This document shows positions 5,812 through 54,446 of a stretch of DNA of 64,000 nucleotides, piece by piece (position 1 is the stretch's first letter; every line of letters starts with the position of its first letter). Source of the DNA: Aphrocallistes beatrix. Lineage: Eukaryota > Porifera > Hexactinellida > Sceptrulophora > Aphrocallistidae. The stretch is from NCBI GenBank assembly GCA_963281255.1, contig OY725488.1, positions 8,963,524 to 9,027,523 of the forward strand. Reading direction: 5' to 3'. The position numbers were made by a program, and so were the translations under genes. The notes below the pieces were generated by a model. That model searched no databases and was not told the DNA's origin. It saw nothing but the letters and a program-made list of their open reading frames with translations.

Positions 5812-6195
5812 CACAATTTTAATTTTTTCATTTTAATCAAACAAATGGTGCTTACTGCATTTCTGAACTCTTATAATATCTCTCGTTCACGTAATTAGGC
5901 AATTATTTCATCTAGCATTATGTTGTGTACTAAATTAAGGTACAATTAACATTACATCAAATCTAAAAATAGATTGGAAACTGATAATTTAGCTCAAATT
6001 ACAGGACGTACGTACAAATAGACTGCACATTGTTCACTTCATTGTCTTAGAAAATCGTTCACATCTGAATATGTTTCTCTGTTATAATCGACGTGTTTTA
6101 GCTCTGCGAATCCTAGAATGGATTTTCTGAGGTTTTTGATTGATGCCGTAATTCCAATTTCTAAATTAGATTTATCTGAACTTAAGAATCCTGAG

Positions 6196-6450
6196 ATGCC
6201 GCTGTACAGGGACTTGCTGCACCCGAGCCCGGAAGAGGAGAAGAAGAAGCACAAACTGAAACGACTGGTCCAGAGTCCCAATTCCTACTTCATGGACGTG
6301 CGTTGTCCCGGCTGTTACAAGATCACCACCGTATTCAGCCATGCACAGACTGTCGTACTGTGCGCCGCATGCTCCATGATCCTCTGCCAGCCGAAAGGGG
6401 GACGAGCGAAGTTGATCGAGGGGTGCTCCTTCAGAAAGAAACCCAACTAG
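6196..6450 (+). CDS. RPS27: 40S ribosomal protein S27 (eS27)
   Basis: The 84-residue product matches eS27 end to end: [20 protein letters not shown] at the start, then the zinc-ribbon cysteines C37, C40, C56 and C59. It is part of the small ribosomal subunit and is normally 84 residues long. The frame is open upstream to an ATG at 6118, but family alignment puts the true start at 6196. The 5' untranslated part could therefore extend through 6118 or begin after an intron ending just upstream. Spacer 5812-6195 shows no other gene. Confidence 0.93.
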
Positions 6451-31407: not shown

Positions 31408-32766
31408 TCAGAAAGCACTAGCAGCATGCTTGCTGCCCCTTCCCTTCTTCTGATTCTCCTCCCACTTCTGTCTCACCTTCCCGTGTAGCATCAAGCTACG
31501 CTGCTTCAGCTCCTGAGTCTTGTCCAGCATTTGCTGGTAGATGGGCGGGGGGTCCTTCCTGATTATCACACAGGATTCCTTGGCGTTTATCTTAGCAACC
31601 AGGTTCTTCTCCTGAATGTACTTGACAATCCACTGTTCGGCCTGACTCACACTCAGATGCATACACTCGGCGAGCATGCTCAGAGAGATGCACTGGTAGA
31701 TCGTGATGAAGTTCTGTAGCACCGCTCGGCGGGCCGCTTCGATGAACGGCTGGTAACACCCGGTGAGGAAGAAGTCGTTCTGTACCACCTGGAAGCAGAG
31801 CGACAGCTTGTCCCGAGCAGCTGAGAAGTCGAACTCTTTGTAGAGTGCGATCAGGAACTGCACGATGGGGTCTTCCGTCTCGGCGCGGTTATCCGTGATG
31901 TACTGCAGGATCCGCTTCACCATGTCCGGCCTGGGACTGAGGAGGGCGGCCACGGCGAAGTAGCGGAACAGATACGGACACTGACTCTGTACCGTCCCCA
32001 AGAGGACACGGTCCTCTCTCAAATCTTCAGACCCGGCGAATATGTTCACCAGACGGTCCATCCCGTTCTCGTGGTGGAAGAACACGTAGAGACTCCAGTG
32101 GATCCACCAGGTGCGCTTCCTCTGTTTCTCCTGCGCGGGGACCGTGGACCGCTCGATGCTCTCCTTCAGCTGGTCCAAGCTCCTCAGTGCGTCATCGAAC
32201 TTGTGCTGGAGGATTTCGCAGGCGATCCTTCCCCAGAGAGCGCTGTTGATGGTCTCTTGGTCGTAACCGGAGTGCGCCAGGTAGAAGAACCAAGTCAGGG
32301 TGCTGAAGGCCAGTCCATAGTCCCCGCACTCGTAATTCAGCTTCGCGAACTGGTACAGATCCCCGACCATCTCCACAGTCATGTTCTGCTTCCGACACAG
32401 CTCCTCGAAGGCTTTGTCTGCATCCTCATTGGCGCCGATTATCTCCCTGGAGTCCGGGTTCTCCAAGATCGTCTCTATCACCTCCTTCTTCTGCTCCGCC
32501 GCTCTGTACTCTTCTCGAACCCGCTTCTCTTCGGCCAAGAGCTCTGGGGGGATTTCTTCCCCTTCCAACTCCTGGTGTATCTGTATGACGTAGTCTATCA
32601 TTTTAGAATTCTTCAACAGCTGTAGTTTGGTCCGAGTCACAACCTCGGGGGAGTAGAGAGATCTCTTGGATAGAAACTCCAAAATTGGGAGTGTCATGTG
32701 AGCATCAAAGTACTCACATATTTTCGGGGTCAGATCGTAGGAAGAGAAGTCTGCTTCAGTTGCCAT
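31408..32766 (-). CDS. EIF3E: Translation initiation factor eIF3 subunit E
   Basis: The 452-residue product matches eIF3e (INT6; 445 in human) throughout. It begins 'YDLTPKICEYFDAHMTLPIL' (residues about 10-29) and contains 'LYSPEVVTRTKLQLL'. It continues through the helical solenoid ('WFFYLAHSGYDQETINSALW') to the C-terminal PCI domain (about 240-400), including 'SLSMLAECMHLSVSQAEQW'. As part of the eIF3 octamer core it helps recruit the 43S pre-initiation complex to mRNA. Single exon; the start at 32766 agrees with the family. Confidence 0.95.
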   Translation of the reverse strand: MATEADFSSYDLTPKICEYFDAHMTLPILEFLSKRSLYSPEVVTRTKLQLLKNSKMIDYVIQIHQELEGEEIPPELLAEEKRVREEYRAAEQKKEVIETILENPDSREIIGANEDADKAFEELCRKQNMTVEMVGDLYQFAKLNYECGDYGLAFSTLTWFFYLAHSGYDQETINSALWGRIACEILQHKFDDALRSLDQLKESIERSTVPAQEKQRKRTWWIHWSLYVFFHHENGMDRLVNIFAGSEDLREDRVLLGTVQSQCPYLFRYFAVAALLSPRPDMVKRILQYITDNRAETEDPIVQFLIALYKEFDFSAARDKLSLCFQVVQNDFFLTGCYQPFIEAARRAVLQNFITIYQCISLSMLAECMHLSVSQAEQWIVKYIQEKNLVAKINAKESCVIIRKDPPPIYQQMLDKTQELKQRSLMLHGKVRQKWEENQKKGRGSKHAASAF

Positions 32767-33087
32767 AGATACTAGATCTCTAATTTAGTAAATTTGGATC
32801 ATTGGATCAAAGGGAATATTTGTGGGATGGGAATCATTAGCAGCCATCCAGATCTTGTCTGGGCTATCCAGCTGTATAACTAAACGTGTCCAGCAGCTGA
32901 TATTACGGGATAGACAATTCTTGACTATTCAACATAGAATTGATGAATTATTCAATGTTAGAATGTGAGAATAATTTTATTTCCAAGAAGTAATTATTTT
33001 TATTATCATTCTTTCATCTTTGACAAATAAACAAGCTACTATTAATATCTACAATCATATACAGTAGAATTCGGTTAGCACTTACTC

Positions 33088-33224
33088 GCTACCAGGGTTG
33101 CCGTGGGAATGATTTTAAGCCTATGGGTATTCCCACATGTGGGATTCTGTGGGTATTCCTGTGGAATTCCCACAGAATGAGAATTGAAATTCCATTCCCA
33201 CGGCAAACCTGGCAGCTACCCCTC
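33088..33224. repeat. Short TIR element
   Basis: 'taccagggttgccgtgggaatg' is matched in inverted orientation by 'cattcccacggcaaacctgg'. The middle contains further 'gtgggattc' / 'gaattcccac' symmetry. About 137 bp, non-coding. Confidence 0.65.
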
Positions 33225-33607
33225 TGGCCCTATTTCGGTCCATAAAATCCACAAAACTAATGTGTTAAATGTATACTGTACGCACAACAGGAATTTAGAA
33301 ACATTCCCAAGACATTCTTATATACTGGTGTATCCATTGTATAAGTAAGGCAATGTGGAGACTGGAAAAGATTAGCTTTACGGTTCTAACTCCACACCAT
33401 TTCCAGCTTTGAACCTTTCTTGGATAATTATCATTTTATTCTGCAAAGTGTACATATTTATCCTTGCAAAAATGTTGTCATGTGGTATGGTATCAAGTAA
33501 CAAGCACGAACTCATCGTTGCTGACAAGAATAAATTCCAGTCAGGTTTTATCCAATAATGTGTCTAATTGAAGGAAGCCTCATGACCAGTCTTCTCCATG
33601 TATTTAG

Positions 33608-33750
33608 AAGGCTTAGTTATAACACATTTCATGAATAATTTCGTGTTTTTCCCAGAAGCATGCTACACAGTCTGTGCCTCGGCTATAAACTGTAGCATGC
33701 TGCTTCTGGGAAAAACGAAATTATTCATGAAATGTGTTGACATAAGCCTT
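33608..33750. repeat. Long near-perfect hairpin (60-bp arms)
   Basis: Left arm 33608-33667, right arm 33691-33750, loop of about 23 bases. The arms pair almost completely ('ttcatgaataattt', 'cccagaagca', 'tgctaca' and complements). Size and shape would suit a small-RNA precursor, but a MITE is equally possible. No expression evidence can be read here. Confidence 0.75.
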
Positions 33751-34408
33751 ACTTTCGTAGGACACAGGCCATGTAGACATAGGAAGCATTGGCAGAGATC
33801 TAACCAAGTCACAAATTTAAAGATTTGGAACGAATTGTAAAATTATTTCACTGAATGCAGTTCAGCAAAATATTTGAGGCGAAATTAAATCATATCAGAA
33901 TCTTAAAATATTATTTAAAATTGTCTGTAGTAGTAAATTGACTATGAATTATTTCAGACTGGAAATGCTGTTCATTTTCATCAATTTCTTACATAAAGTA
34001 TAAACTGTACTGATGTATTTCTTAATATTATGGTTTAAGGGAGGAATTATGACCGGCGGGCCGGTTACCAACACTCATTTAGAACTGTACACCTATATTA
34101 TATGAACATCTATGCTTCAAACAATATTATAGGAAGTACACTAACATATGTATGTATGACATATTAATGATTGTGCTACAAATGTAGGCAAATGAAATAA
34201 CAAAAAAATAGTCAAACCTCAAAACTCAAAAGTAAGAAGTCAACCGACTATGTGAACTGAGCCGCTATACAAACGCAAGGACCCATTGAAATATACAACA
34301 TTATACAGTATGCTGTGTGCCTATGTAATGAATCCTAATTAAAAAGAACTAAGTTAAGAAGAGGAGACAGAGTGGAAAAGTGGGGTCGGAGAGGTGTCTT
34401 GATTTAGA

Positions 34409-37400
34409 TTAGTTGACTGTACTCCAGACTGGAGAATTCTGCTCTCGGTTAATCGCATCGATTGCTTGAGAGCGGAACTCTTCGATAGATGAGCCTTCCA
34501 ATTTGACTAAAAGAGGAGAAATCGTGTATAGAAAAAGTCCATTCTTGCCAACTATTTTTGCGGGACATCCCGCTTTTTCGGACATATGTTGAAATTAATG
34601 TCCCGCGAAATGTTCCAAAAAGTGGAATTGCCCGCTTTTCAGTGTAGAGGACTAATACAAGATAGAATGTCCAACTAAATAGCTCAAAGTCCCGCTTTTT
34701 CCTTGCAGAGGTTGGCATGTATGAAAGTCACACATAAAATAATGAGGATACTTATACAGCGAACATCGGAATCACCGATTATTGGCGGAATACCGATGTG
34801 ACCAATAGGAAGTATTACCAATGTTGTATATAAGTATTTTCTAAAATAATTTCGCTCCATTACTTACCAAATTCATGTGAATGCGACACATCCTCTGTAG
34901 GTGCAGAATCAGGGAAGAAGGATTGCGGGGCTCTACTCGGCAAGCTAGAATTCAGAATTCAATACCAATAATCCCGTCTATCCACAGAAGAATGGACGCA
35001 CTAGACCGGCGGAAACAGCTGTGAGGGGTCAGACCCTCGCGGGGTTTTAATTTTACTCCAAAAGTGATCAAAGGCCACGGCCAGATTGGCCTAACCGCCA
35101 GTTCTCCCTCTAAGCTTTTCGGCGGTAAATCGCCGAAAAAATGGCGCCCCCGGAGGAGTCATGGCCGATTTTTAAAGGAAATCAGGAAAAGCCGGATTTT
35201 AAGAGCCCAAGAAAATTCCTAATCATAATATATGCATTTACATATAATAATACATTATAGACCTCTGAAATGCAGCTCTAGCACATACTTCCAACAGTCT
35301 CGTATCTAGGTGATCTACCTGTCTGTACTATACGGTGTGTCTAACATTATAGACTTAGCTATTATATCGCTAAATTAAAAGCCATCGCCGATTCTTAGAG
35401 AGAGCACTGCTAACCCTTCCGCCGGCCTCATAACCAACTTACACAGACCTCGGGTCGCACATGATGACGATGGGGTGGAGGTGTGAGAGCTCTGCCAGCT
35501 CCTTCCTCCCCTGCGCCACAATCACTGGGTGTGTGCGCTGCATATTAGTAAATATAAACAATGATTCACACTCAATTAATTGAAAATAACAACAACAACA
35601 ACAACAACAACAATTGTTTCTCACCTTTTGAAGACTCTTTTGGAAATGTTCTAAACAGAAGTATTAGATTTACTGTTAATTTGTATTCAAATTCGTGAGA
35701 TTCTATCGTGGGTTTACCTTCACTCTTGAAGTGTGAGAATTTGTCTCTGTGCTGCTCAAGGAGTTTCTCTTTCAAGTCTGCTGCGAGCTGACCTACTAGC
35801 ACCACGGGACGAGCCTTCGGCGCTACAAATAAGACATTTCTCAAATATTAAAACGATATAGGACTTTGTTTGTTTGTTCGAATTGATTAAGTCGTAGAGA
35901 TATTAAAATTGGCATGTAGGTGTCAAATGTTGAAGATTTAACCCTTAAATTACCTGGAGTCATTTATATTTATAGCAAAGACCCCACACTTCTAAGGTTT
36001 CCCGCCCAAAATGACAACCGGAAATGAGTTAGCAAAAATCTAGCGCCATTTAAGGGATAATTATTAAGCAAAATTTTCACACCTCTGCAAAAAACAACAA
36101 ACAAATTTTCACACCTTTTCTATACATTATATATGGCTTAAGTTAATTAACTCTCACAATAGCAAATATTATCGACAATATCGTTATCAATTGTACTGCA
36201 AAGAATAACTTATACAATATGCTAATTCTTTTATAGAGTATTGTATAAGAACTAAAATGATGTGTGTATTTTCACACCTTTATATACATGTTTTCACACC
36301 TTCAAATATAAGTTTGCTAGAGACTAGCTTTCAAGGCATAACACACAGCGTCCGTAGGCGGTACAGCACAAGCAAGCGAAGCGCGTTTGTAATAGTAATG
36401 ATTTCAGTTAGAATCAAAGTGTCCAATCTAAATCTAACTCTACCTTTGATCTTGTTGAGGAAGACGAAATGAGGCATAGTTCCGTCGATGATTTCATACT
36501 GCATCTTCCGCACTCTGTAGAATGGAATATACATCATTAATCTGTCAATAGGACAAGGAGGGTCTGTGAATAAATACCTGTCAGGATTGGGGATCTCCAT
36601 CAGACCAATCTCCCTCCCTTGGTCCCCTATCTTCCACGCACGCCAACTTTCGGGAGTGTAGAGAGAGTTCACAACGTGCCAGATCCCCTGCTCTAGTAGT
36701 GCACCGATGAAGAAGTTGGTTCTTTACAGGAGATAGCACAGAATCATATGAGATTAGGAATAATTCAGTAAGCATACTTGCCAACCATCCCTGGGATTCT
36801 ACACTGAATCCAGGGATTTTGAGTCAATTTAAGTGACTATTTATGTCTAATAAGGATGGGAAATGTTAATAATTTGCTTCTAGAATCGCAAGAACATTCC
36901 AGAATTTAATTATTAATGAATAATAGTGTAAAATGATTAGTTTCTATGGATTATCTTTAAAAATCCAGGTAATTTCTAATGGGGTTGGCGGGTATGAGTA
37001 AGGCTGATTAATAGAAAGCAGCATTGCACAACGTTTCCTTGCTAAAGAGAATATCATTGTATTACAGCAAAATTAGCAGTCACAATCTCTACTGGTCTGA
37101 TACTATCCTGTGATAGCTGTACCCATGTATTCTATTCGTATAGTAATTAATGATGAGCTGTTACCTCACATAGAATGAATCCCAGCTGTCAATCTGTGAT
37201 AACGCTTTTGAATAACCTGAAACAAATCGTATTGTTAGAACGGAAAGTAAACTACAGTCGACTCCACTTAATAGGACCACCGGTTAATCGGGCTAGTTTT
37301 GGCAGGACCGGAATAGTTCCCGGATTAATTAATCGGGTTAAGTGGTCCTATTAAATGGAGTCAACTGTATGTACGTACATCGCATATATAAACATATCTC

Positions 37401-40400
37401 CAATAATTACTTACGGAATTTGTTTTCTGAAACTGTGAGATCAAATGATACGTTTGGAGGGAGAGAAGTGATCTTTTTTTGAGCTTCGAATCCGTTCAAA
37501 GATTGAAAACTTTCTCCATTCAACTAAAAAAGAATCGGTGGGCTGATTTTGTAAACAAACCATAAAACTACCTCAAGTTCTGATTGCGTAGAGATAATCA
37601 CAACAAATATCATGCAAGTATTTAAATAATTGAATATACAATGGTGGATGATCTCAACTGCTACTAAGAAGCAAACATCATAATGAACTTCCACTGCTAG
37701 TTCCAATTGACCTGCTTCATCAATTAGCTGGGTTAGTTAGTTTCATCAGAGCGATCGGAGCATTGCAACATCTCGTATGCGGTGGAAATATATTCTATTT
37801 TATGTATATCACGAAATACATGCGCTACAGCTGCACTCTTTTGTTATTACAATAAAGTAACAACCTCATGGATGTCTTACACATCTGTTAAAATGTTAAT
37901 TTGGACTTGTTGTTCTAGAACCGAAGGGCGATTAGTGACTGTGAAATATTCAAAGACAATGTACTTACTATCCGCAAGTTTTGGTACGAATAAATAGAAT
38001 TTCGACCACAATTTCTTGTCGTACTAGTTGAGATGATCAGAGCAGATTCATTAAAAAGTGCAGTTTTACAAAAAAGTAAAGTTCACCCACAAAAATGGAA
38101 AATAATAAATAATATGGAGGCACTGCTGTTTACTACAAATCACAATTATGGACCTGTGTCCCTGTATGGAGGCAAAACAATGTGAACTTATGCGCTTGAA
38201 ACATTAAACATTCAAAACAGGTGTATTCTAATAACGTTAATAAGAGAATGAGCACTCACTGAGAAGATCTGGTCCCCCAGGCCCAGCTGATGCTTGATGG
38301 CATTCTCAACTGAGTGCACAAAGATGCCAGTCTCGCTCCCACCCACGATTGTGAAGCTGGACTCTTCACTTTTGACAATCCTCACTTCACGAGATTCCGA
38401 GCTGGAATGAAACGGAACGTAAAACTTGACAAATCAGACAAACCGTTTTTAAACCAGCGTCTATTAATAAACAGATTAGAGAGTAAGAGATTTTGTATTG
38501 ATCGTTTGTATAGAGACAATTTGAAATAACTCACTTATACCAGTGGTTTCCAACCTATGACGCATTCCCCAAAAAGGGAACACTTTAAGTCAACACAATA
38601 CTTCCCTACCAACAGGAGTACCCAACTATGAGGAAACTTGGTTCAGAGACAATAATATCGCTTTATTGGGCCGCGGCAGAGGCAGGATACCACTGTTCAT
38701 ATAGTTTTATCATAAATTTATAATAATACAAAATATGCAAAGAAAACAAGCGATCCATAATGTGTACAATTATTGGTCATGAATAACAAATCCGTTATTT
38801 GGGTGAGGACTCACACTTTCTGCAAATCCGACTGTACGGGTTCTAGTGTGAGAGTGGCATCGAACTCCTCTCCTCTGGCGGTCAGGACGATGGGTTTCCC
38901 GCTCAGTCTGAGATTGTCCATCTCCTGGTTGATCAGTTCGATCGCTTCGCTCTCCAGCATTCTGTCTGTCTTGTGGGAGTTGATCGAGTTGATGCTTCCC
39001 AGGGGGCATTTCCGGGAGTATTTGGGACCGGACAAAAGGGTTATTTCTCCCGTGATCACATCTCCGCTGTCGCGAGAAAGAGAAGTTTCAAAGCTGGGCC
39101 CGTACCCAGAATCTCCGAGGTTTTTGGAGCTGCTAGCATGTGCAACTATTGAATAGAAATATAAGTTAAAATACAGCAAACTTAGCAGTGGCGAAAAAGA
39201 GATTATAAAATTTACGTTTTGGAGTGGTTTGGCCGCGTTCATAACTGTCGTCTACGCTCTCCTTTTTGGCGATCGGCTCTGGCGGACTCTTCTGAGTGGT
39301 CAACGGTTTCTTCGGGACCTCTTCGCTGGCAGATTTTGATAAGGGAGGAGAGGACTGCTTAGTTTGTGGAGGCGAAGATTGGGTCTGGGAAGGCTCCATC
39401 AATTTAGTCAGGTAGCTCATAATGGACTGTGTAGTTTCTAAAAGATGGATATTCTTAAAAAAATGGTCTATCGAGAAAACACACTCTGTCTCTACAGAAA
39501 ATTCCTAGCACTCACCAATGGGCACGGAGCCTCCACGGTTGATTAGCTCGAGAGGGTCTCCTTTGGGGTAGAAGGTAGACTTTGGTTCATGCTTGGTTGT
39601 CTCACATTCTCCTTCATCAGTCTCGTCGTTATGAACTCCATTGGTACGTTCAAATCTAGGAAAGCAGTATAATCATCAGACAGTGTTAGTGGAGGATTGA
39701 AACCATTCACAAGCTATACTTCCAGTTACGCAATCTTAGTGCAGCTAGTTCTATGTAACAGAACTGAACTGTAGTGTAGTGGAACCGTCACTGCAACTGA
39801 ATGGACATTCGTAGGCATTTATTAGATATGAAATAAGGAATCCAGTATGTAGGCTGCGGTATGTATGGCATTCTCAGCAGTAACGGTGAAGAAATGATAA
39901 CAATAATTCACTCACTGTTTTCGCACGAGACTGAGACAGACGGAGATCTTGTGGTGTCCGAACTTCTGAGCGTAGTCCTCGGCCAGGAGTCCGGCGGGGG
40001 ACGGGATGAGGAGGAGGTTGTGGCTGGTCCGCGGCTGGAGCAGGACGTAGAGGAGAGGCTCGATGCCTAGCCCGGCTGCCAGCACTAGCATCTTGTACAT
40101 CGGATTGTACCCTGCGAGAATAAATAATAAAAGTCAGGAATGAATAGGAGAGGGAGAGAGGAAGGAAGGAATTGGAAACTTACCAGGATGGTTGTAGAAC
40201 TGGCTGGGGCCCTGTTGCTGCTGCTGTGAAGAGTGGAACTGAGAAAAGTCCCCGGTGATGCTCTTGTAATGCTCGTTGCTAACAAGATTGCTCGTGAGGC
40301 CCTTCAACACTTCGATGGTGTACGGACTGTAGTTCGAGTCAGTGTAGGTGAACTCTGCCGAGGCAATCTTCGCACGCGACTCGGCAAGAATTACGTATAT

Positions 40401-43400
40401 CCGCAGCGTCTCACTGCGGATATGAGCCGGGATCTGTGTGAACAGCGCGTAGCCCATGTCCTGCGTGATGGGGACGAGATGTGGCTCTACGGCTGAGTCG
40501 AAGTAGAGGAATTTCTCTCCTTGAGGGACAGAGTTGTTGTCTTGATGTGAAAATACGATACAGAGGTCACCGCCACCCTGCAAACAAAGAATCGTTAAAT
40601 ATAAATTATATTTATTTTTAAATTTTTATTTCGAATAGAAACGGCTAAGTTACCTGGATCGGACTGTGTACTGGAGTGATGCGGATATCTACAGGGTTTG
40701 AGAGTTGAGATGAATTTATGATTTTAAAAGTCTGAAATTCGGGTTGAATATTTTTTCTCGAAAGAGGTGGTCGCTCCAATTGCCATTTGTGGTTGTTAAC
40801 GTTGTTATGAATTTCTGAATTCATTATGTTTGAGAGTTGATGGTAAGTGAGTTTACTGCTCTTCCTCTATTAGTCTCTTTTATACAGAGAAATAGGAACT
40901 ATCCACTGATTAGCATGGAAAGCTAGGTCACCTAAGTTCTCTATGAAGTTATAATGAAACCTACATTGCTATGTATTGCGATACAGAACTTATCTTGCCT
41001 AGATTCAGAATGAATAGGATAGCATATATTTAGTTCTAAATAGAACAATGCAGATTGTAAGATCTAATAAACTATTTTATTTCAGACCTAGCTACTTCCC
41101 ATTACGTAAAGTATTTCATCGCTGTTACACAATGATGAATGTAATTAATAATTATTATTTCAAATAGGAGAATTAGGTTTTGAAAGTGGAAGCATGTTTG
41201 CAAATGGCAGCTGAAATATTGGAACCTTAAAGTTGTTTGGTAAGAAATAAGAAAAATCGGAGATGGGAACTAACTAACCATAGTAATCTGTGATCAAAAC
41301 GTGAGTTTGGTCTGGGATCTGAAAAGGAGCATGAATTTAAATTGAGTATTTATTCAAATAAACGCATCAACTCGATATAATGAATACCTGCTGCGGAATC
41401 ACGTGCTCTACTTCCTTCTGGTCGAGCAGAGGACTGTCAATGTGAGACATGGGACCTGAAAGAAGTTGGAATGTTATGGCGTATGATGACAGATAATAAC
41501 TGTCGCCTAATACATTACCAATACGGAATAGGTCTCTAGCTTGGTTGACTAATTCATTGAAAGATGATGAAGAATTATGAATTATTCAATTAATGAATTA
41601 TTCAAAAGCTCAAACATTAGTGCAGATTCTATGCCCAAAAGTGTTTGAAAGGTTGCTCATGTTATATATCTCTAACATTGCTCAGTCCCTAAGCGAAATA
41701 TCAAATATTTTTTTCAGTATTTTAGTTTCAAATTTTGAGTAATTCATTGATAATTCATGAATTAGTCACTTAGGTCTCTAGACGTAATAGAACATTAAAC
41801 ATTAATAGATCTGCATAATGTTCAGACCATCGGTGTGAAGCTATTCGGATTAGCGAGGTATTACAAAAATGTGAGATACAGGTGATTCCGCTTAATCGGG
41901 ACACTTTGGTCCCGGATATTTTGTCCCGATTAGGCGGAGTTCCAAATCAACCGATGAAATTTAGTATTAGCTTCTATGCATGGGAACCATTCCGTTCCTG
42001 GAGACTTGTCTCGATTAATTAAACCCGGAAAAACTTAGAATTATGCTTACTCATTTCCGGTTTAACCCATTTTGGACGGGGACGCCATAGAAAATTGGGG
42101 TCATTACTATAAATAGAAATGAACCCAAGTTGTCCCGGGTTTAATAACCGGTGTTCCAACTAAGCTGAGTTGACTGGACTATAAGATAACAGCTAGGTTC
42201 TAACTGAGAACAAACTCACTTCTGTGCGTGAAAGAAGAACCAGGTCCAGAGTATATGTTGCTAGAGATGTTACTAGCGTTCTCCTCGAAAGGATGGACAT
42301 TGGGAGAGGGAGCCAAATTGAGATCCGAACCTGGAGATGGTTTGCAGGGGATATCCACATACTCGTCATTCTCGAGTTGAGTGTATGCCTGGTTGGACGT
42401 CTCCGGATCAACCTGAGAATAGTAGGAAGTCGAATCTCCGCTGAATCTAGTACCGGGGACTACTTGGTCCTAGGGATGCATACACCGAATTGACTAGAGC
42501 ACTTGAGGGGAATATCTGTGAGTGGCAGCGAACTCACCGACTCTCGCACTGTGTAGATTGTCGGCGGATTGCTCGGTATCATGTTGAGTCCGTTTTCTAA
42601 TCGGATAGCATAAAATATTTCGTACTAATTTGGAACTGAAACATATATTGAACTTACGCTGAACTGGGTGAATACACTCTTGTTGCTAGAGAATAGAGAA
42701 TATGGAAAATGCTTACTTGAACTATCTGGGCCAATATGCAAATATTAGAAATTATGAATTTATAAGCCACATCATTAAAATGGATTAAATAATGCAAAAC
42801 TTAAATAATGCAAAACTTGAACCAAAACTGAAGTATCAAATGGTCTAATATTCATGTTGCGTTACGGCAATGAAATCATTCGCAGAATCACAGGAAATGA
42901 AAATAAATTCCGAATCATAGACGTAGAGGTATATTATTCGAAAAGTTATGGTTAATTTGCAAAATGAATTCCAAATTTTTCGAGACGACACAAATGAGAA
43001 TTATACCTGGAACAAGTTCTGTTGTTGAATGATCTGTCCCGGGTGCATTTGGTGAGGAATTGCCCGCGGGAATATTTTTATAGGCGCCATTTGCTGCGGT
43101 TGGTGGTACTGCTGAATATTGAGCTCTCGATCTACACGAAAAGTTATTGACTGAAGGTTCAAATATTTTGAATGCAATAAATATATTTACCTCTCTTGAG
43201 AGGTGTGAAGGCATTATTAGCATCGAAAATCTGATTCTAAGTGAGAAAAAGATACAACCTAATTGAGAACATTGTAGCACTAATAATTATTAATAAACTT
43301 ACATTATTGGGGTGAATAGCTAGAATAAAAAGAAATCAATTAAGATTGTTCACTCTTATCAGTTCATTTTCGTAATAACATTTAGTTAGTTTCGATTACT

Positions 43401-46400
43401 GGCAATGGTATCACCAATTGCAGGCCCGAGCAAATGGAAGTATCTTCCAGGAGTTCTTATCAATTAAAATTCCGATACGTGCAAGTTTCATATTTCAAAA
43501 CAGAACTAAATCTGCTTTGTTCTGATTGGTTGGATTATTATATTAATTAAACCGGATTTGTGTAGTAAAGTTGATTTCATATCCTAGGTGACAAAAATCC
43601 ATTTTTACGGAGTCACGATTATTAATAAAACAATGCTCACACAGGCCTGGCAAAAACGTCAACTTTTATTTCATTATAATTGTATTAAATGCATTCAGAC
43701 GTATAATAATGATCGGCGTAGAGAACTTACAGAACGGAACTGAAGAATTGACGATATGTTGCTGCTAGAAATGAAAAGTAAATGTGTATAAACTGCTCTG
43801 GAATTGTGTCACAGATATAATAGCCAATAGATTCTCCGTGGATGCTAGATCGGATTTACCACATTCCAAGTAAATATATCACACACTTCATCACATTCAG
43901 GGATTTTTAGACCTAGTTCCGAATAATATTCCAACATTCTTATCAGGCAATGAAATGTGGTATCCGCCAGAATATTTGACAACCTTAATGGTATATTCTC
44001 TAATTCTTAAAAATATCTGATTTTTGGAAGGACTTCGGCCATCGTTTCATTTTATCTAGCCCACTCTAGTCTAAATAACCATAACTCTACCACAGTTCTA
44101 ATATTAGTGTAATGTACCTGGAATGGATGGTGGTATTGCTCTAGAATAGTAGGGTTGGAGTTTGGGTAATGAGAACATAGCTAGAAAGTAGGTTATAACA
44201 AGGTTAAGTATGTATTCCTATTACGATGTGAGAGAACCGTGTTTAAACATAGGAAAGAGAGAGTTGTCAGAAAAATGCAAGTGGTAAAGTTCAATAGTGC
44301 TATTTTAACCCACAACCGAAAAAAGAGTAGGTCCACAGGCGTTAGAATGGCCCCGGGGAAGTGACTAGTAGGATGCGATATGGTGTTAAATCCCTGGATT
44401 CTAATTGGCTAATACCTCCTGTGAAAAGGTGTGAAAATTTTAAAAAAGTTGTACCCAGATGCATATTTCCACCGTATAAGGTATTAATATATGGTCCAAA
44501 TTTTGTTCAATTTGGTCCAATAGATTTTCAAGGAACGAGCAGACGGACATAGATGCTACACAGTTCATGTCATAAGTCAGAAAAACCGCTAATAAACTTA
44601 AGTTATCAGCGCAAATATGAAACACCAAAGTATCCATATTCAAAAAGTATCAATTTAAAAGTAAATTCCAGAGAAATCATTGGCTGTAACGTTATTCTGT
44701 CGATTACATTGTTTTTGGGTTATCTAACAATAATATTTTTGCAAATATTTATAGAAAATATATTGCATCAAACATTAATTCATTAATTAATGGTGCAATT
44801 ATTCTGTACTATTCAAAGTTCAAAACAATAAATATTTCTTGGGAAATACAATAAATATTTCGTGGGAAAGAATCGTTTGCACAACATGTTTCGTACCATC
44901 GGAATGTGAAGTTGATTTAGTAAAAAATTATCTAATTTGCGTTCCAAAAAATCAAGAAGTAAACGCGGTTTTTATGGTTTGAGAGTTTCATGATAGACAA
45001 TTAGTTCTACAAATATATTCCGAATAAGAGTTCGTTTCAGTAGATAACAAAATTCGTTCTAACATTCCATAAATTAATTGGTTGTTGGTAGATTGCATAG
45101 TGTGATTTCAATACGCAATTTCCCCAGCAAACACGAAAGAGTTGTCTAGCTACAACAGTTACGCAGATAAGTAGGAGAATGAAGAAACTGAACTTGAATA
45201 GGAACTAATTTCCACGGGTTCAGTTAAGTAGGCTGAAATAGTCAAAGAGTAATTGTTACTAACACCCAAGCTTTGAGTATATAAAAAGATATCAGCGAAA
45301 CTCACAAGAGGAATTGGGGGAGTCCGAGGATTCTTCACAAACTTGAATACCTCTAGGAGAGAGACGATAATTCAACATTTGCAACAAGCATGAAGGTCTG
45401 AATGAGAATAACACAAACCATCACACAACTCTCTGGGGGCTTCAAACACTCGCGTTTTGTACAACGTCCCTTCTTTGATGCTCATGTGCTTCACTTCTTG
45501 AAGGTTCGGGAAAGCTTTAGAAAGACCCTATGGGGAAAAGGTAATACACTCCAACGCCATGATTAGGAATAGATCTAGATCTAGGTGTGGTGTACTATGT
45601 GGTGATTTTAGACATCCCTTGTATTGAACACTAGGGATCTCTTCAATCATACTTATTCGATTGAATTATATTTAGAAGCTCGTTATAATACAACGCCCAC
45701 TTCGAATAAGGCCGGTAAAACAAACACGCACACCCAAAATTGATATGTATGTTAAACTAATTTTGAATATTGCAAAATTTTGAAATTCAGAAAACAATAT
45801 GGAGAGCCAGCGTACGAAAATCAGAAGTCGAATCGAATACATTTATTTCAAACTTATTCGAAGTGAATCTAATTAGGCTGCAGTAGTATTGAATTGAAAC
45901 ATTGTACTGGAACGAATGAATGAATTCCAATTCTTCGGATTATATTTTTAGAACTTCGTTTTCACATCCAGCGTGATATACAAATCTTCACTTGTGACGT
46001 AACGAACTTAAGCGGCGTAAATCAAATCAAAATCAAATAAAATTTCTCGCGGATAGAATAACGTTGTTCAACACATTATCTAATAATGTTATAGACAAGA
46101 ACATGAGAGAAATTATTTCGAAAATTACGCCATTATTGACGAATCAAATTCCGATGACTGGAATACTTAGTCATACTACATGCTGATATTATAACATCAC
46201 AGACATCTCGGATACGAGCAATTCATTGTATTTCGGCTAAATATTTTAAAAATATTTATAAATATATCATCCAACATACCTTTTTGAATATACTGGTGGC
46301 GTCCATCTCTTCTGAAGTTCGCTCCTTCTCGGAATACCAGATCCGAGCTAAGGTTTGCCAGTCACGAATCTCGAATTTCCCGCGTTTTGGTTCCAGCCAT

Positions 46401-47067
46401 CTACAAAGTTACTGCTGTACTAAAATTAGACTGTAAGACTCTGAAGTTATTCTCGAACTAACTAAAGGCTAAGCTGGGAAACTTGATCCATATATTTTAT
46501 AAGAATGTGAGTGCGTAAATACGGGCTCGGGTTGCCCATTTTTTGTCAGTATTGAACCCTTAGAACTAGAATTTGGTCCCGACATGTACCCCTTAGCTGA
46601 TGTACATATAAAAGTACCTTGAATAATCTCCCATTTGAAGGTTGCGGATGATAAACTGCGCGAGTTTCCCTCTCTTCCGGGAGTAGGCCCAGTTACACCA
46701 GGCTACTTTCCACTCTTCATCTGTCCCTGATCTCTCTTCTTCCCTAAAATAAAGAATTGACATCATGTAGCTATGTATGAGAAACGGAAACTTATTTGTT
46801 ATTTGCTAGATTCAGTTCATAATATATCCCATATTTGAAAACGGTCATTCGTTTGACGAGAGAGAGGGAGAGGTGAGGTTTCACTTACAAGATGACAGTC
46901 CCTGGTGTGGAAGTGATGGACTGGGGTGTACAGGTGAGGGAATTCATGGATTTTGTTGGTTGTGGGGAGGACAAGGACATGAGAGACTGGGAAGAGGGTG
47001 TTAGGGAACTACTGAAGGTGATTGAGTTGTTGGGGGGGACTGGTGTTACAATATGCCCGTGAAACAT
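34409..47067 (-). CDS. 31-exon winged-helix/TIG/ANK/PDZ/SH3/GUK fusion protein
   Basis: Exons, 5' to 3': 47067-46889, 46743-46618, 46400-46280, 45527-45419, 45352-45306, 44180-44118, 43764-43731, 43319-43303, 43236-43191, 43131-43007, 42685-42658, 42596-42538, 42469-42220, 41455-41388, 41318-41279, 40688-40654, 40577-40184, 40111-39916, 39655-39516, 39437-39216, 39145-38815, 38401-38260, 37523-37415, 37216-37165, 36721-36578, 36514-36444, 35822-35718, 35650-35625, 35537-35443, 34944-34868, 34506-34409. All introns are GT-AG, all phases join, and the total is 3549 nt, 1182 residues. Order: ETS/IRF-like winged helix (about 70-175), Q/P/H-rich linker (180-318), tyrosine motif (347-358), TIG-like (439-535), ankyrin-like (582-645), acidic then Ser/Pro-rich linker (646-770), PDZ (about 880-958), SH3 (975-1035), GUK-like (1045-1182). 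An in-frame stop lies seven codons before the start. The role is unknown; a signalling-coupled transcription regulator is an inference. Least certain are exon 1 and the end of exon 4. Confidence 0.8.
34541..34724. repeat. Family C element in the last intron of the fusion gene
   Basis: The termini 'ttgccaac' and 'gttggcatgtatgaa' are inverted, and the interior is rich in GGGACATCCCGC-type words. Other copies: 47785-48003, 53082-53256 and 59483-59664. Confidence 0.65.
35965..36392. repeat. Family E fragment and family B tail in an intron
   Basis: About 35965-36055 contains 'tttcccgcccaaaatgacaaccggaaatgag', matching the complement of 48661-48760. About 36340-36392 carries the 'gcaagcgaagcgcg' family B tail. 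Both lie between exons 26 and 27 of the fusion gene or touch its flanks. Confidence 0.5.
37253..37369. mobile_element. pogo/Tc1-like MITE, family D, intronic
   Basis: A 117-bp element from 'tacagtcgactccacttaat' to the complementary 'ttaaatggagtcaactgta', between exons 23 and 24 of the fusion gene. Confidence 0.7.
39916..40688 (-). other. TIG-like plus ankyrin-like module of the fusion
   Basis: Exons 16-18. The segment beginning 'IRITPVHSPIQGGGDLCIVF' (residue 439) has the beta-rich TIG/IPT pattern (P..G P..GG..), through 'ETLRIYVILAE' and 'ASAEFTYTD'. The next exon gives MLVLAAGLGIEPLLYVLLQ and GLLAEDYAQKFGH. This lines up with the ankyrin-like stretch after the TIG domain of BCAP/BANK1/Dof (LLHFAAKYG, then N-x-AEKHGF). 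CAMTA-type TIG-ANK proteins are the alternative comparison. Confidence 0.6.
41547..42181. repeat. Family G element, then family D element interrupted by family E
   Basis: Family G spans 41547-41770. Family D starts at about 41877 ('tacaggtgattccgcttaatcgggac') and ends near 42181 ('taagctgagttgactgg'), twice the length of its relative at 31049-31205. The excess (about 42030-42140) contains 'catttccggtttaacccattttggacgggg', a family E piece. All lie between exons 13 and 14 of the fusion gene. Confidence 0.6.
42220..42469 (-). other. Tandem tyrosine motif exon of the fusion
   Basis: Exon 13 (residues 319-401) contains YTQL at 347-350 and YVDI at 355-358, four residues apart, in an acidic setting (QLENDEYVDI). 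It resembles an ITAM with a shorter spacer (ITAMs have about 6-8). Such motifs, once phosphorylated, dock SH2 domains. Phosphorylation here is inference. Confidence 0.5.
45419..46743 (-). other. ETS/IRF-like winged-helix segment of the fusion
   Basis: It is spread over exons 2-4 (residues about 61-178). Key residues: KLAQFII (helix 1), RWLEPKRGKFEI (strands), DWQTLARIW (helix 2), MDATSIFKKGLSKAF (recognition-helix position) and QEVKHMSIKEGTLYKTRVF (wing and last strand). Length and the first half fit an ETS domain. The end, with its EV...S..+G....RV pattern, fits IRF. Both folds are winged helices that bind GGAA-type sites. The ETS recognition arginines (RALRNY/RGLRYY) are replaced by KKGLSKAF. 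Confidence 0.6.
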
Positions 47068-47784
47068 CTTGATCTGGCTATCTCACTAATGACATACACT
47101 CGCACTATTCTAATTTCGTGTCCAGAGGATCTGTATCCAAGATAGAGAGATAGACCTTCCTTAGATTTTTTGAAAGAGGGAGACGGTTCACAAATTCGAT
47201 ATCAGGTGAGTAAATGTATTTTATAGGAGTTCAGTACGAAAAATCGAAAATCTAGGGGGTGGATTTCTCAAGAGATTGAATAAGAAAACCCCGATAAACA
47301 CGAGTAATGACTACAAATTCAAAAATAGACAGTCTTATTACTTCATATTGCTCTATAGCGCTTATATACATATTATTGCCTACAATCTACACCTATTTTG
47401 CTCCCATTGATAAGGAAAAATTCTTCCCTAATTGCCTTGTACCAAAAGCTTTAAATTACCCTGTTACAATGCATAAATAAATATAATGACAACAATACTG
47501 TATATGAGAGTGGAGCAGATACTAAAATGAAGTAAGTATCTCTCCCGTAATGACGGGGAATTTTAATAGAGACCATCACGTGCACAGAAAATACTATGCT
47601 ACGGTACCTGGTGATTGAATAATTAAACTTGTGTGGATGTAATCAATATTTGTCGAGATGTGCTGCATTATTTCCATTATTTGTGCATATAATTCATTAT
47701 GCGGTTTGACAGTGTGTTTGTGTGCAGACTCACAGACTACGGCGTTCTGCCTAGGCGAATCAACACATTCAAAACTGTCCAATG

Positions 47785-48003
47785 TTCATACATGCCAACC
47801 TGAGCCATGATAAAAGCGGGACGCGGCGTTGAATTTCGCGGGACATGACGGGACGCAATAGAAATATACTATACATATGATACAAAAAAGCGGGACATAA
47901 TGGGGAAATTTCATGTAAAAGCGGGACACGATAAAATTAGCTCAATAGAAGAGTGAAAAAAGCGGGACGTCCCGCCCAAAACGGGACAGTTGGCAAGTAT
48001 GAA
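47785..48003. repeat. Family C element
   Basis: About 219 bp with 'ttcatacatgccaac' and 'gttggcaagtatgaa' as near-inverted ends; repeated GGGAC words inside. Confidence 0.7.
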
Positions 48004-50968
48004 TGTTTTAAAGCCTAAAAAGCTAAGCTAAACGATTTACATTTGTAAACTTCTCAATTTTTAATTTATCTAAAAGAGCCATTGCACCGACACAGTGTGA
48101 AGTTTGAAATCAATTCAGGATCGTAGATGAAGTTCTGCCAATTTATAAAAAATATGCCTATTTGATCGTAGATTTTGTTAAATCGTAGCTCGTATATATA
48201 ACTTAGTATCAGTACCTAATTTGAGACGAAGCCTTATGACATTTAGTAACAGATAATTAAAAGGAATCAGAGAATACCAAAGTGCGCATATATTCGCATA
48301 ACACATGCTCCGAGCTTGTAGAGAACAGTTCGGTGGGTTCCGACCCAAGCACCCACTAATAGCTGAACATAATATTATGTTGAAGTAGTTAGTTGAAAGC
48401 TGTCATGTATGAAAAGGAGTACATATAATTTAGTTGGAAATTGACATGTTCAGATTATTCCTCAACTTAGTCAAGGAATGTCATACATGATAGAGATATT
48501 AAATAATATTATTTTCAGCAGTAAAGCACTAAATTCTTTCTGGCTTTATTCAAACTTAAGAATTAAGTATTGTTAACACATCGAACGAAACTTTCAAATT
48601 CGTAGTTAGCAGGTAGCCATAATATGGGACAAAATTGATTTTTCTCAGTATACCCCTCCGTTGCCCCTGGAATGTGTCGCGTCATTTCCGGGTTAAGCCA
48701 TTTTGGGCGGGGAAGCCATAAAAATTCTGGGTATTTACTATAAATAGAAAAAAACCAAGCCATCCGTTAAAATATTGGTGTGATGGATTTTAAAAACTAT
48801 TGACTATGTCTATGTCTGACATTATCTGTTTAGAAATAAGTTCTAATGACTACAAACGCACAAATCAATCAATGTGGAGAACTCCCAACCGCAACTTTAT
48901 TTTGTAATAATCTCACACTTCTATTTCTATAATATCTTCTATAGAGCTCAACTTATCGGTTCAACTCGAAATTAGTCACCGCTAACTAGAGACATTCGTA
49001 CTGATCTACCATTGAATGGTAGACTTTCCAGTAATTGTGTCCCGCATTACTCGCAGAAGGAAGTAGTTAGTTTCAATATTAACATGACCGCTTCCTATAA
49101 GCCCTCATTCATATATGCACAGTCGAATTTTGTCCGTTGAGTTCATATCCTAGGAAACAGAAAAACAGACGGACAAAAAAACCCGGGGTAAAAACCAATG
49201 ACTTCGATTGATACAGCATTGTTAATTCCAAATAGAAAGACGTATAATTAGGTTTAGATTCTAGTTTCATTTTGAGGTGAAGGGGGGCGGCGTTAAAAAA
49301 AGTATTGGATTGTACTCCTCCACAACATTGAAGTGCAATTTTAAATTCAGAAATATTTTCAAAGTCAGTAGAAGTCTACTCGTTATTTACAAGATCACTC
49401 AATTACGAGTGAGACAAAGTGCATTATTAGGTAATGAAGCTCCTTATCGAATCTATCAAATAATGAATTATAGCATCCGATTATTTACAGTGCTTAGGGA
49501 ACGCTGCTCAACACAATTTCAGCATATCGAGATGAAAGAATATTTAATGATGTGCAGACGCCAATATCATTCTGAACGTAGATATTGATATTCAGAGTAG
49601 TCAAGGTGGTGAGATTCTGTTTGAGAAAGTTGTGTGTGATTGTCACATTCAATTTAAATGCACCACCTCAATGTGACACAAGCTAAACCTTGGCTACGCC
49701 ACTGTTGATAGTTTATTTTAGTATTAAACAGATCTAATCTAAGTATATTGCACATCAAACGAGATATTTCGTCCTTAAAAAAGCGAGAAGCTATTTCAAT
49801 GTTAACAAACGAGTCAAATACTTTTAAATGCATCAATGAATTATATGGTTACAGCGCACATGAATTTTGTTCTGATAAAGAGAATTGATTGGCCATCGAG
49901 GATATATTTCTTAAATGGATTAAAGTTTAAAGAATCTATAACACAAGTTTTAGCTAGAAATTAGATTAGATTACGTTCCAAGTTTTGAAGTAGAAATTCC
50001 ACATCTTGTTAAACCATGTTATAAGGGTATGGTGGAAATAGTTCGAACCAAAACCGGAAATAGTTCGACTTTCCAAAAAAGGAAATAGTTCGAAAAAACC
50101 CCATTAATCCTAATGGTAAAAAGTCGAACTATTTCCTAAATCCGCAATTCGAACTATTTACTTTTTCGAAAAGTCGAACTATTTCCATTTTACCGTTATA
50201 AGTATCAGTTAAAACAAACAACTCACATTTGAATGTTTATTAGTGTAGATGGTAGAGCTACTTACTCCTCCTAAAAAGCATACGAAATAAGAATTCTGAT
50301 TCCAGTTATTTCTATTTCATTAAAATCGATCATTGGCTTACCTGAGTTTAATACTATTTTCTGTAATAGGTTTCTCCGTGTGCTAATATGGCCTATAATA
50401 TAGTCCTATTTATGCTTATGCTTACTGCTGTGCCATCTACTCCGTTCGTGGTTTCATTACTTTCATTACTTTCATTACGGCCATTTAGGTAGGGTTTAAA
50501 GGTAATGCTATAGCCTTTACTTATTAATAATGGATGTAATTTAACTTGTGAAAGGATGTAGTAATTAACTGCTGTTGATAGTTAATAATTGCGGCAAATC
50601 AGTTGGGATCATCATTGGCTTAATATGGACATATAATAATCACTGTCGATTTACACAATGTCATGATAATATATTTTGACTGTTTATTATTAATACGTAC
50701 AGTATGACTGGCAATACTGTGTAAGGATCATTTCATGAATTATTCTCTGTTAAAATATTCTCCTTATATAATAAATCAGAACACGTATATGCGTGTTACA
50801 TATAATCAACGTGGGATTTATCATATTCTACTTCACATGTTATAGTCATGTCTTGATAATATTGATGGTTAGCTACTAGACGCTAGGGAACTCATTAACA
50901 TCTGCTGACATGATTTCATCGCATCTTGTGAAGTAAACACAATCACACATCAACATTGATAACAGGCA
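48004..50968. other. Spacer with family E and family P repeats
   Basis: Family E lies at about 48661-48760 ('catttccgggttaagcc', 'ttttgggcggggaagcc'). Family P lies at about 50024-50196, an inverted arrangement of 'ggaaatagttcga' words. The rest is AT-rich with no supported gene; the 103-codon ORF at 49277-49588 has no recognisable domain and AT-driven composition. Confidence 0.5.
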
Positions 50969-51895
50969 CTAATCTAGTCCGTCAACTTCATCCAATCTCT
51001 GATGACCGCCAGGAAATAGGTTAGACAGCGGATTCGCCATTCCGCGGAATGGTTGGGCTCGAAGGAAGTTCAGTTTGGTGAGCAACTCAACCAGGGATGG
51101 GTCTGTCTGTAGCGCAGTCATGTACTGCTCTGTGAGGTATTGGCACCTCTCTAGAGGGGAGGGGTCGCCCCCACTCTCCTCCTTCAGGACTTCAAGCAGC
51201 ATGTGGTTGTAGTTGAGGAGGGGGTGCTCCTTATACGGGAAACCGGTCCCCAGCAACGGGTGGTTGGAGAGGAATGTTCTCAGGGAAAGTTCTGCCTCCT
51301 TCAGGTACCCTTCAGCCAGGAAGCCGAGTACCAGCTGCGACGCGAACTGCCCGGTCTCCCCGGGGTAGCCCTCCCTCAGAGAGAAGTCCAGGACGCGCAG
51401 AGCGAAACTCTCCGCCTGGCCCGCGTGGAGGAAGTGCTTCCTGGCTTCTGGGTGGCGCTTGAGGGCCCAGAGGAGCTCTCCCAGCTCGGAGTGGAGTCTG
51501 GGGTCGCCGTTTCCGGGGGTGGCCTCCTGGGACCACTTGATGCAGATGCGCATGAGCTTGATGGCGGCGGTGCTCTCCTTCTGAGCGGTCTTGAGTTGGT
51601 TGAACAGTGCCAGCGCCCGCTCTACGTCCCCCTCCCCAGCCGAAACCGCATGCGTCCTGAGGTGTTCCGCCCACTTAACCGCCAGCTCCTCTGCACTCTC
51701 CAGCTGGCACCGCGACAGCATCACCTCTGCCCCCTCGTACAGGGTCCCGGCCGCCTCCTCGCTCGCCCCGCGCCCCATGTGTCGCGTGTACAGGGTCAGG
51801 TAGACCTGACTGGCCTCGTAGTAGCTCCCCTCCTCCAGCAGCCGCTGGAGGCGAGCTTGGAGGCGTGAGCGACCTGAAGAGGGATCTGAGGACAT
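50969..51895 (-). CDS. GET4: GET4, tail-anchored protein insertion factor
   Basis: A single-exon frame of 308 residues resembling GET4 (TRC35; about 327 in human). GET4 is an alpha-solenoid that, with UBL4A and BAG6, passes tail-anchored proteins to GET3/TRC40 in the cytosol. Family features: LLEEGSYYEASQVYLTLYTR near the start, then AAGTLYEGAEVMLSRCQLES, PRLHSELGELLW, PEARKHFLHAG, FASQLVLGFL and the PLLNYNHMLLEVL segment. The end 'PFRGMANPLSNLFPG' resembles the conserved tail (G..GNLL.SL.G). The BAG6-binding region cannot be judged. Family identity is high even though sequence has drifted. Confidence 0.85.
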   Translation of the reverse strand: MSSDPSSGRSRLQARLQRLLEEGSYYEASQVYLTLYTRHMGRGASEEAAGTLYEGAEVMLSRCQLESAEELAVKWAEHLRTHAVSAGEGDVERALALFNQLKTAQKESTAAIKLMRICIKWSQEATPGNGDPRLHSELGELLWALKRHPEARKHFLHAGQAESFALRVLDFSLREGYPGETGQFASQLVLGFLAEGYLKEAELSLRTFLSNHPLLGTGFPYKEHPLLNYNHMLLEVLKEESGGDPSPLERCQYLTEQYMTALQTDPSLVELLTKLNFLRAQPFRGMANPLSNLFPGGHQRLDEVDGLD

Positions 51896-53435: not shown

Positions 53436-54446
53436 TCAACAGAGGGGCATGGGTGAGTGCTTGTCAGCTCCTGGAGTGATGACAGAGCTAGGCGGGAAGC
53501 AGTCCACTGACTCACTCCAGGGGCTGAACGGCTGATTCTCCTTGCTAGCCAGTCCGATGAAAGAGTCGGACGAGACCGGCTGGAGCTCAGGGGAGCTGGT
53601 TTTCTCATGCGTCCCGCCCACTCCTTCCTCCTCCTGCTGCGAGGACTGCGAGACGGTGGGGGTGATCGGATTCGCATCGCAGCACTGAGACCCCTGTCCG
53701 CCCCCTGTCTGGTCCATCAGCACCTTCTTCTTGTCCTTGCATCGCTTGTTCTGGAACCAGACCCGGATCACGCGTGGAGTCAGTCCGGTCAGTTCCACCA
53801 GCTGGTCCTTCATTACGGCGTCTGGGCGCGGATTGGCTGAGTAGAAGCGGCGCAGCACGCTCAGCTGCTGCTCGTTCAGGACGGTCCGCACGCGGGTGTG
53901 CTTCTCCTGAGCGCGGACGGGCGGGGACGACTTCTGAGATTTGGGACCCGGGGCTGGCTTGGCGACGGAGGGGGTGGGGGGGCTGAAGGGGGATGAGGAG
54001 CTGGAGGTGGAGGTTCGAGGGGAGTGGTATTCCTCTTTCACTTCCACCGCCTCGTAGAGGTTGAAGTGCTCTTCGCTGCAGAAGAGAGAAGAATGGGAGA
54101 GGATGAAGGGGGAGTTAGGTTCGATGTCTTCTTGGCATGCCTCGCAGGTGAAGCAGTTGCCATGGTAATACAGATTATTCACTCTGTAGGCCCTCTCCTC
54201 GAAATCGAACAGCTGACCGCATCTGGCGCACTGCTTGCAGAACAGCCGCAGATAGTCCGGCTTACAGTACACATTGTCCCCTTCAACATAGCAAGTGTTC
54301 TCCGAGTCGAACTCTGTCCCACACTCGTGGCACTTGAGACAACTGCAGTGGCACTCTCTGTCGGCTATCTGCTTCACGATGCTCTCCGACACTGTAGTCC
54401 CACTGCAGATGAAGCATGTCTGCTTTAATTCAATCGATTGATCCAT
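53436..54446 (-). CDS. ISL1: Islet-type LIM-homeodomain transcription factor
   Basis: The single-exon 336-residue product has LIM1 (about residues 11-66, starting CFICSGTTV), LIM2 (about 70-128, CKQCARCGQLFDF) and a homeodomain at about 183-242. The homeodomain carries TRVRTVLNEQQL, ANPRPDAVMKDQLVELTGL and the diagnostic VWFQNKRCKDKKK; Trp230-Phe231 begin the recognition-helix signature. CKDKK and 'LTPRVIRVWFQNKR' point to Islet rather than Lhx1, Lhx3 or Apterous classes. Islet factors bind LDB and specify neurons, heart and other cell types in bilaterians. The C-terminus is short and acidic, shorter than vertebrate ISL1 (349) overall, with no clear LIM-binding decoy domain recognised. Lack of introns is unusual for this class. 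Confidence 0.9.
   Translation of the reverse strand: MDQSIELKQTCFICSGTTVSESIVKQIADRECHCSCLKCHECGTEFDSENTCYVEGDNVYCKPDYLRLFCKQCARCGQLFDFEERAYRVNNLYYHGNCFTCEACQEDIEPNSPFILSHSSLFCSEEHFNLYEAVEVKEEYHSPRTSTSSSSSPFSPPTPSVAKPAPGPKSQKSSPPVRAQEKHTRVRTVLNEQQLSVLRRFYSANPRPDAVMKDQLVELTGLTPRVIRVWFQNKRCKDKKKVLMDQTGGGQGSQCCDANPITPTVSQSSQQEEEGVGGTHEKTSSPELQPVSSDSFIGLASKENQPFSPWSESVDCFPPSSVITPGADKHSPMPLC

Follow-up and report, generated by a model that had tools for sequence, protein, structure and literature searches.

A predicted sponge MAGUK-type protein with a divergent ETS/IRF-like winged-helix segment at its N-terminus

Within a 64,000-nucleotide (nt) stretch of the genome of the hexactinellid sponge Aphrocallistes beatrix (contig OY725488.1, positions 8,963,524 to 9,027,523; hereafter the window), we identified a chain of 31 exons on the minus strand that runs from an ATG at 47067 to the end of a stop codon at 34409. 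On balance, we read this chain as one gene for a 1182-residue MAGUK-type protein with a divergent ETS/IRF-like winged helix in its N-terminal part and a ZO-1-like PDZ-SH3-GUK module in its C-terminal part. The exon chain is open and in phase from end to end, and both ends show likeness to these known families. Between the two halves of the predicted protein lie long linkers rich in Pro, Gln and Ser, together with a middle region without a recognised fold, and the product is most likely a MAGUK scaffold to which a winged-helix module has been added. The exons and the segments they encode are as follows:

46889..47067, minus strand, exon 1: Ser/Thr/Pro-rich N-terminus with the predicted start codon
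46618..46743, minus strand, exon 2: start of the winged-helix-type segment
46280..46400, minus strand, exon 3: RWLEPKRGKFEIRDWQTLARIW, the ETS-like core
45419..45527, minus strand, exon 4: IRF-like last part of the winged-helix-type segment
43007..45352, minus strand, exons 5-10 (45352-45306, 44180-44118, 43764-43731, 43319-43303, 43236-43191, 43131-43007): Pro/Gln/Asn/His-rich linker
41279..42685, minus strand, exons 11-15 (42685-42658, 42596-42538, 42469-42220, 41455-41388, 41318-41279): linker
40184..40688, minus strand, exons 16-17: strong exons, labelled TIG in an initial annotation of this DNA
39916..40111, minus strand, exon 18: labelled ankyrin-like in the same annotation; its donor overlaps an in-frame TGA
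39516..39655, minus strand, exon 19: connects the two halves
38815..39437, minus strand, exons 20-21 (39437-39216, 39145-38815): linker preceding the PDZ domain
37415..38401, minus strand, exons 22-23 (38401-38260, 37523-37415): PDZ domain
36444..37216, minus strand, exons 24-26 (37216-37165, 36721-36578, 36514-36444): MAGUK SH3 domain
34409..35822, minus strand, exons 27-31 (35822-35718, 35650-35625, 35537-35443, 34944-34868, 34506-34409): guanylate-kinase-like domain and stop codon

All 30 introns are GT-AG, the phases match across all exons, and the coding length of 3549 nt (1182 codons plus a stop) contains a single stop, which is terminal and directly follows ...NREQNSPVWSTVN. The initial annotation had described just such a chain, and our rebuild agrees with it in exon count, both ends and terminus; the rebuild was made with the earlier count and ends known, and was therefore not blind. 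The model was assembled from a hand reading of the three minus-strand frames and a dynamic-programming gene finder trained on hand-picked exons, with the gene finder supplying exons 5-9 and 12. At exon penalties of 6 and 4 the gene finder returned 45 and 58 exons, respectively, 28 of which are model exons in each case; the others were left out of the model as weak or altered. Exons 1 and 23 are absent from both paths, exon 30 from the penalty-6 path and exon 6 from the penalty-4 path. Exon 30, with an acceptor score of 0.9, is the least certain of the chain. Exon 1 is the top candidate initial exon up to 3.9 kilobases upstream of exon 2, scoring 9.2 when left out of training (its shorter starts score 7.6 and 6.6, and the next different candidate 3.9), and the nearest upstream in-frame stop lies at 47085 with no ATG between. 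Exon 1 is also mostly open on the opposite strand (46877-47062, plus strand), where the reading looks more fold-like than the Ser/Thr-rich sense reading.

Mean GC content is 0.499 in the exons and 0.345 in the introns. In the 12.7-kilobase region of the gene, all six minus-strand donors scoring at least 6 are model sites, as are 14 of the 16 minus-strand acceptors at that score, with two donors and two acceptors on the plus strand. The strand contrast is smaller at scores of at least 4 (donors: 42 minus, 26 of them in the model, versus 36 plus; acceptors: 69 minus, 25 in the model, versus 29 plus), and it is partly circular, since hand-picked exons of the same gene made up the training set of the scoring matrices. 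Amino-acid composition did not separate the exons from other frames and was dropped as evidence, and branch-point motifs (8 of 30 introns, 8 of 85 decoys) are too weak for judging single introns. Frame-by-frame Pfam searches with stops read as X gave nothing at E ≤ 1, either in the three minus frames of the gene, whose exons are short, or in the flanks at 47100-50903 and 32780-34401. Searches for RNA families at gathering score and for tRNAs found none, and neither relatives of exon 17 in viral contigs nor relatives of exon 21 in genome contigs were detected.

The winged-helix segment was compared with known families after excision of exons 2-5. The excised segment matches Pfam Ets with E=0.0011 (19.7 bits), its best match in the PDB is SPDEF (1yo5, E=0.0012), and seven of the eight PDB sequences found at E ≤ 10 are ETS proteins (SPDEF, ELK1, ETV6). 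Against shuffled sequences, the alignment to pieces of SPDEF and ELK1, both picked after the search, gives Z scores of 11.3 and 8.4, respectively, while three IRFs give 2.2, 4.0 and 4.9. The C-terminal half taken separately (exon 4 with the last part of exon 3) scores Z 7.1 with IRF2, 5.0 with IRF1 and 3.0 with a third IRF. In profile comparisons with hhalign, the probability is 85% for a two-sequence alignment of ETS proteins but 9% for an alignment of IRFs, and Pfam gives no match to the IRF DNA-binding domain profile. These comparisons support a winged-helix-type segment with an ETS-like first half and an IRF-like second half. The ETS/IRF-like segment of the initial annotation is upheld, with SPDEF as its nearest solved structure, but it stays below the Pfam gathering score for Ets. 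If the assignment of the halves is right, it bears on the relationship of these two winged-helix families. The stretch at 45419-46400 (minus strand) could be viewed as an intermediate between them.

The C-terminal module aligns to ZO-1 across PDZ and SH3 with E=2.7e-11, and ZO-1 is its closest relative among solved structures. Excised, the PDZ segment passes the Pfam cut-off (E=3.1e-5, 24.7 bits versus 23.2) and scores Z 11.4 against the ZO-1 PDZ; the SH3 follows directly, and its ZO-1 alignment scores Z 14.3, with no Pfam SH3 match. The SH3 together with the early GUK matches the ZO-1 SH3-GUK structure 3lh5 (E=1.3e-5). Pieces of the GUK, in three comparisons, score Z 7.8-8.7 and lie in the correct order, but the GUK alone has no Pfam match, and its best PDB hit is PSD-95 at E=0.71. 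The pieces for these Z scores were taken from search alignments, and control pairs gave Z 1.1 and 1.4. Overall, the data support the assignment of exons 22-31 to a ZO-1-type PDZ-SH3-GUK module, upholding the PDZ and SH3 domains of the initial annotation and its GUK in part. A further stretch containing CAMLLSINQPYSYPPTPLEITWIF (37030-36947), SH3-like by eye, was rejected as an exon because no GT donor is seen before its stop and because the direct join of exons 24 and 25 matches ZO-1. Exon 21 has no detectable PDZ similarity. The linker at residues 778-784 reads DSGYGPS (39093-39113, minus strand), which we take to resemble a DSGxxxS phosphodegron.

The two domains proposed for the middle region were not recovered. 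For the TIG label of exons 16-17 there is no Pfam match, the hhalign probability is 0.7%, and Z scores are -0.4 with CAMTA1, 2.4 with a piece of MET (29 of 1000 shuffles reach the real score) and 1.4 with the DBB segment of BANK1. For the ankyrin label of exon 18 there is likewise no Pfam match, and Z scores are 1.5 with the BANK1 ankyrin segment and -0.1 with an ankyrin consensus; the BANK1 segments serve as approximate queries. Neither a DBB nor an ankyrin Pfam family is found anywhere in the protein. A PDB search of the labelled segments returned a single match, plastocyanin, at E=0.98, and single-sequence AlphaFold2 predictions of single exons were too poor for a fold search, with mean predicted local distance difference test scores of 44 (exon 17) and 46 (exon 21).

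That the two recognisable ends belong to one gene depends on the joins between exons. For each join we took the best splice-path score between two exons, leaving the tested exons out of training, and compared it with scores from shuffled sequence; shuffles yielding no path were counted as below the real score (up to 73 of 300 in some joins, and 31 of 60 for the join from exon 22 to exon 25). The join that links the halves, from exon 18 to exon 20 through exon 19, scores 20.2, whereas the shuffles average 2.6, and none of 3000 dinucleotide shuffles reaches it. Neither do any of 656 transplanted noncoding segments, whether in the plain test or when the donor of exon 18 and the last part of intron 19, with the acceptor of exon 20, are retained (maximum 19.2), nor any of 1000 trials at penalty 7. 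When all exons are used to train the model, a similar recipe yields 27.9, with none of 500 reaching it, along a path that includes one extra 21-nt exon. Of the three sense frames of exon 19, two contain stops (6 and 1), and the single open one is the frame that both neighbouring exons require. Joins between separate genes in the window served as negative controls and were unremarkable: the real score is equalled or exceeded by 234 of 500 shuffles when exon 31 is joined to eIF3e, and by 51 of 500 when CEP76 is joined to RPS27.

Elsewhere along the chain, the join that leads out of the winged helix into the linker (exons 4 to 10) is equalled by none of 300 shuffles at penalty 5, on a path with extra exons, and by none of 150 at penalty 7, where the path consists of exactly exons 5-9. 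Nor does any shuffle reach the real score for the joins 4 to 6 (0/100), 10 to 13 (0/200), 13 to 16 (0/300), 16 to 18 (0/300), 20 to 22 (0/300) and 27 to 29 (0/300). Best paths contain extra small exons outside the model at 2 to 4, 4 to 10 (penalty 5), 13 to 16, 22 to 25 and 29 to 31.

Several observations weigh against a single gene with both domains. On the side of the domains, the Ets score is 19.7 bits for the excised segment and 15.3 bits (E=0.026) when the whole protein is scanned, both below the cut-off of 26.9, and the PDZ passes its cut-off only when excised (18.5 bits, E=0.0027, in the whole protein). ETS recognition helices typically carry two arginines, and the corresponding helix here, MDATSIFKKGLSKAF, has by eye lysines and no arginine pair. 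On the side of the joins, the scoring matrices derive from this very gene, the join from 18 to 20 only narrowly exceeds the top-scoring shuffle (19.1) and transplant (19.3), and three joins are weak: 22 to 25 (3 of 60 shuffles reach the real score), 2 to 4 (3 of 100) and 29 to 31 (4 of 100), the first two of which have homology support. Exon 18, if unspliced, would terminate at a TGA ending at 39912, an AATAAA follows at 39823 (minus strand), 88 nt past that TGA, and the genome is compact, the CEP76 stop and the RPS27 ATG lying 384 nt apart.

A possible alternative, which overlaps our reading of the gene, is that the winged helix no longer binds DNA and that an ordinary junction scaffold uses it for protein interactions. 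The divergence of the segment, with Ets below its cut-off and no IRF match, fits this alternative, and it is a serious rival because the typical ETS recognition residues are not evident. Two features speak for retained DNA binding instead: the basic patches RKR and KRGK are present in the segment, and the core is well kept relative to ETS, at the Z of 11.3 for a piece chosen from the search.

The observations around exon 18 would be explained if two adjacent same-strand genes had been misjoined, one for an ETS/IRF-like factor with its end near exon 18, the other for a ZO-like MAGUK with its start in exons 19-21; misjoining of adjacent genes is common in gene prediction. In-frame ATGs at 39420, 39399, 38960 and 38921, in exons 20 and 21, could begin the second gene, and a boundary would fit the 478-nt gap between exons 18 and 20 because the genome is so compact. 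This explanation has to contend with the join from 18 to 20, which no shuffle and no transplant reached, and with the exon 18 donor, which is fair (score 4.9). Moreover, intron 18 offers no good initial exon feeding exon 19 in frame (best score -0.0, none above 0). AATAAA is an unreliable end mark here: of the eight other predicted stops in the window, three have one within 600 nt (276-290 nt away), and the final stop of the model has none within that distance. We regard two genes as the less likely reading, and as the chief rival to a single gene. The AATAAA after exon 18 may also mark an alternative 3' end of one gene, giving a short isoform that lacks the MAGUK module. A broken gene or an assembly chimaera, which might be feared where a single genomic sequence is the basis, is very improbable given 1182 open codons over 31 exons (in a model built to avoid stops) and no repeat families of at least 40 bases (seed 14) in 34000-48500. 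The whole chain is probably one gene, as the initial annotation had it: one reading frame leads from the ETS/IRF-like segment to PDZ-SH3-GUK, backed by splice-graph statistics with controls and known here from genomic DNA alone.

If the chain is one gene, a more far-reaching and more doubtful interpretation, which we put forward tentatively, is that its product is a scaffold-tethered transcription factor, one protein that unites a winged helix of ETS/IRF type with a PDZ-SH3-GUK module of ZO type. From what is known of the family, the scaffold part would bind partner tails and an SH3-GUK ligand at membranes, and could anchor its product at a junction or in a receptor complex, in the manner of ZO, DLG and CARMA proteins. 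The winged-helix part might then bind DNA or another regulator once it enters the nucleus, whether in the whole protein, in a shorter isoform or in a fragment released by cleavage. With both functions in one protein, such an arrangement would provide a direct route from cell contact to DNA, and the state of a membrane contact or receptor could govern gene expression with no separate messenger in between.

The neighbouring genes recognised in the window are:

971-2407, minus strand: MFS transporter
3832-5808, plus strand: CEP76 (Pfam match)
6187-6447, plus strand: RPS27 (Pfam match)
31414-32763, minus strand: eIF3e (Pfam match)
50978-51886, minus strand: GET4 (Pfam match)
53442-54464, minus strand: LIM-homeodomain gene (Pfam match), Islet-type by eye

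These six neighbours have long uninterrupted coding segments with a GC content of 0.48-0.64, alongside the 31-exon gene. A further segment at 58588-59064 (minus strand) is Ser/Thr/Pro-rich and then hydrophobic, like a small single-pass membrane protein, and has no Pfam match at E ≤ 0.001.

Among known proteins, ZO-1 shares both the order and the sequence of the PDZ-SH3-GUK module. In the ZO layout there are three PDZ domains and, as the tail, a ZU5 domain, whereas the sponge protein has one detectable PDZ, stops at the GUK and begins with a winged-helix-type segment; Pfam gives no match in three frames of 32780-34401 downstream of the stop. Where MAGUKs are known to signal from junctions to the nucleus, they do so through separate partners, as with ZO-1 and ZONAB or CASK and Tbr1. 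ETS factors are linked to the protein by the core W-x11-D-x4-AR-x-W, which it shares with SPDEF, and are set apart from it by the sub-threshold Pfam score and, by eye, by the recognition helix. We know of no ETS protein with a MAGUK module. To IRF factors the likeness lies in the second half, where FPNLQEVKHMSIKEG resembles LPDIEEVKDRSIKKG of IRF2, and is not matched at the level of Pfam or hhalign profiles. The initial annotation knew of no described protein with this domain order; a limited literature search, which included the combination of ETS, PDZ and GUK domains and covered few subscription papers or preprints, found none in the portions of text available.

The initial annotation also pointed to CARMA and DBB proteins. 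The likeness to DBB proteins (Dof/BCAP/BANK1) is one of domain order by eye only, set against the negative Pfam results and low BANK1 scores given above; in one study, DBB proteins occur in cnidarians and bilaterians and were not found in Mnemiopsis, Amphimedon or Trichoplax (PMC7260276). The link to CARMA concerns the MAGUK module only: ZO-1 is the closest solved structure, no CARD match occurs in the 1182 residues, and no CARMA chain is among the 27 PDB sequences at E ≤ 10. CARMA proteins end after the GUK, as the sponge protein does. According to a study of the family, ZO and CARMA form one group that is sister to DLG5, CARMA is seemingly vertebrate-only, and Amphimedon lacks ZO and has a MAGUK with the order CARD-PDZ-SH3-GUK (PMC2859873). 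A fusion upstream of PDZ-SH3-GUK has precedent, because CARMA/CARD11 likewise joins a foreign signalling N-terminus to a MAGUK module: in jawed vertebrates, as described in one source, a CARD-coiled-coil protein became fused to a ZO-1/Dlg5-like MAGUK upstream of the PDZ (PMC5978004). If our reading of the sponge gene is right, it would be a further case of a foreign N-terminus placed upstream of a ZO/DLG5-type PDZ-SH3-GUK module.

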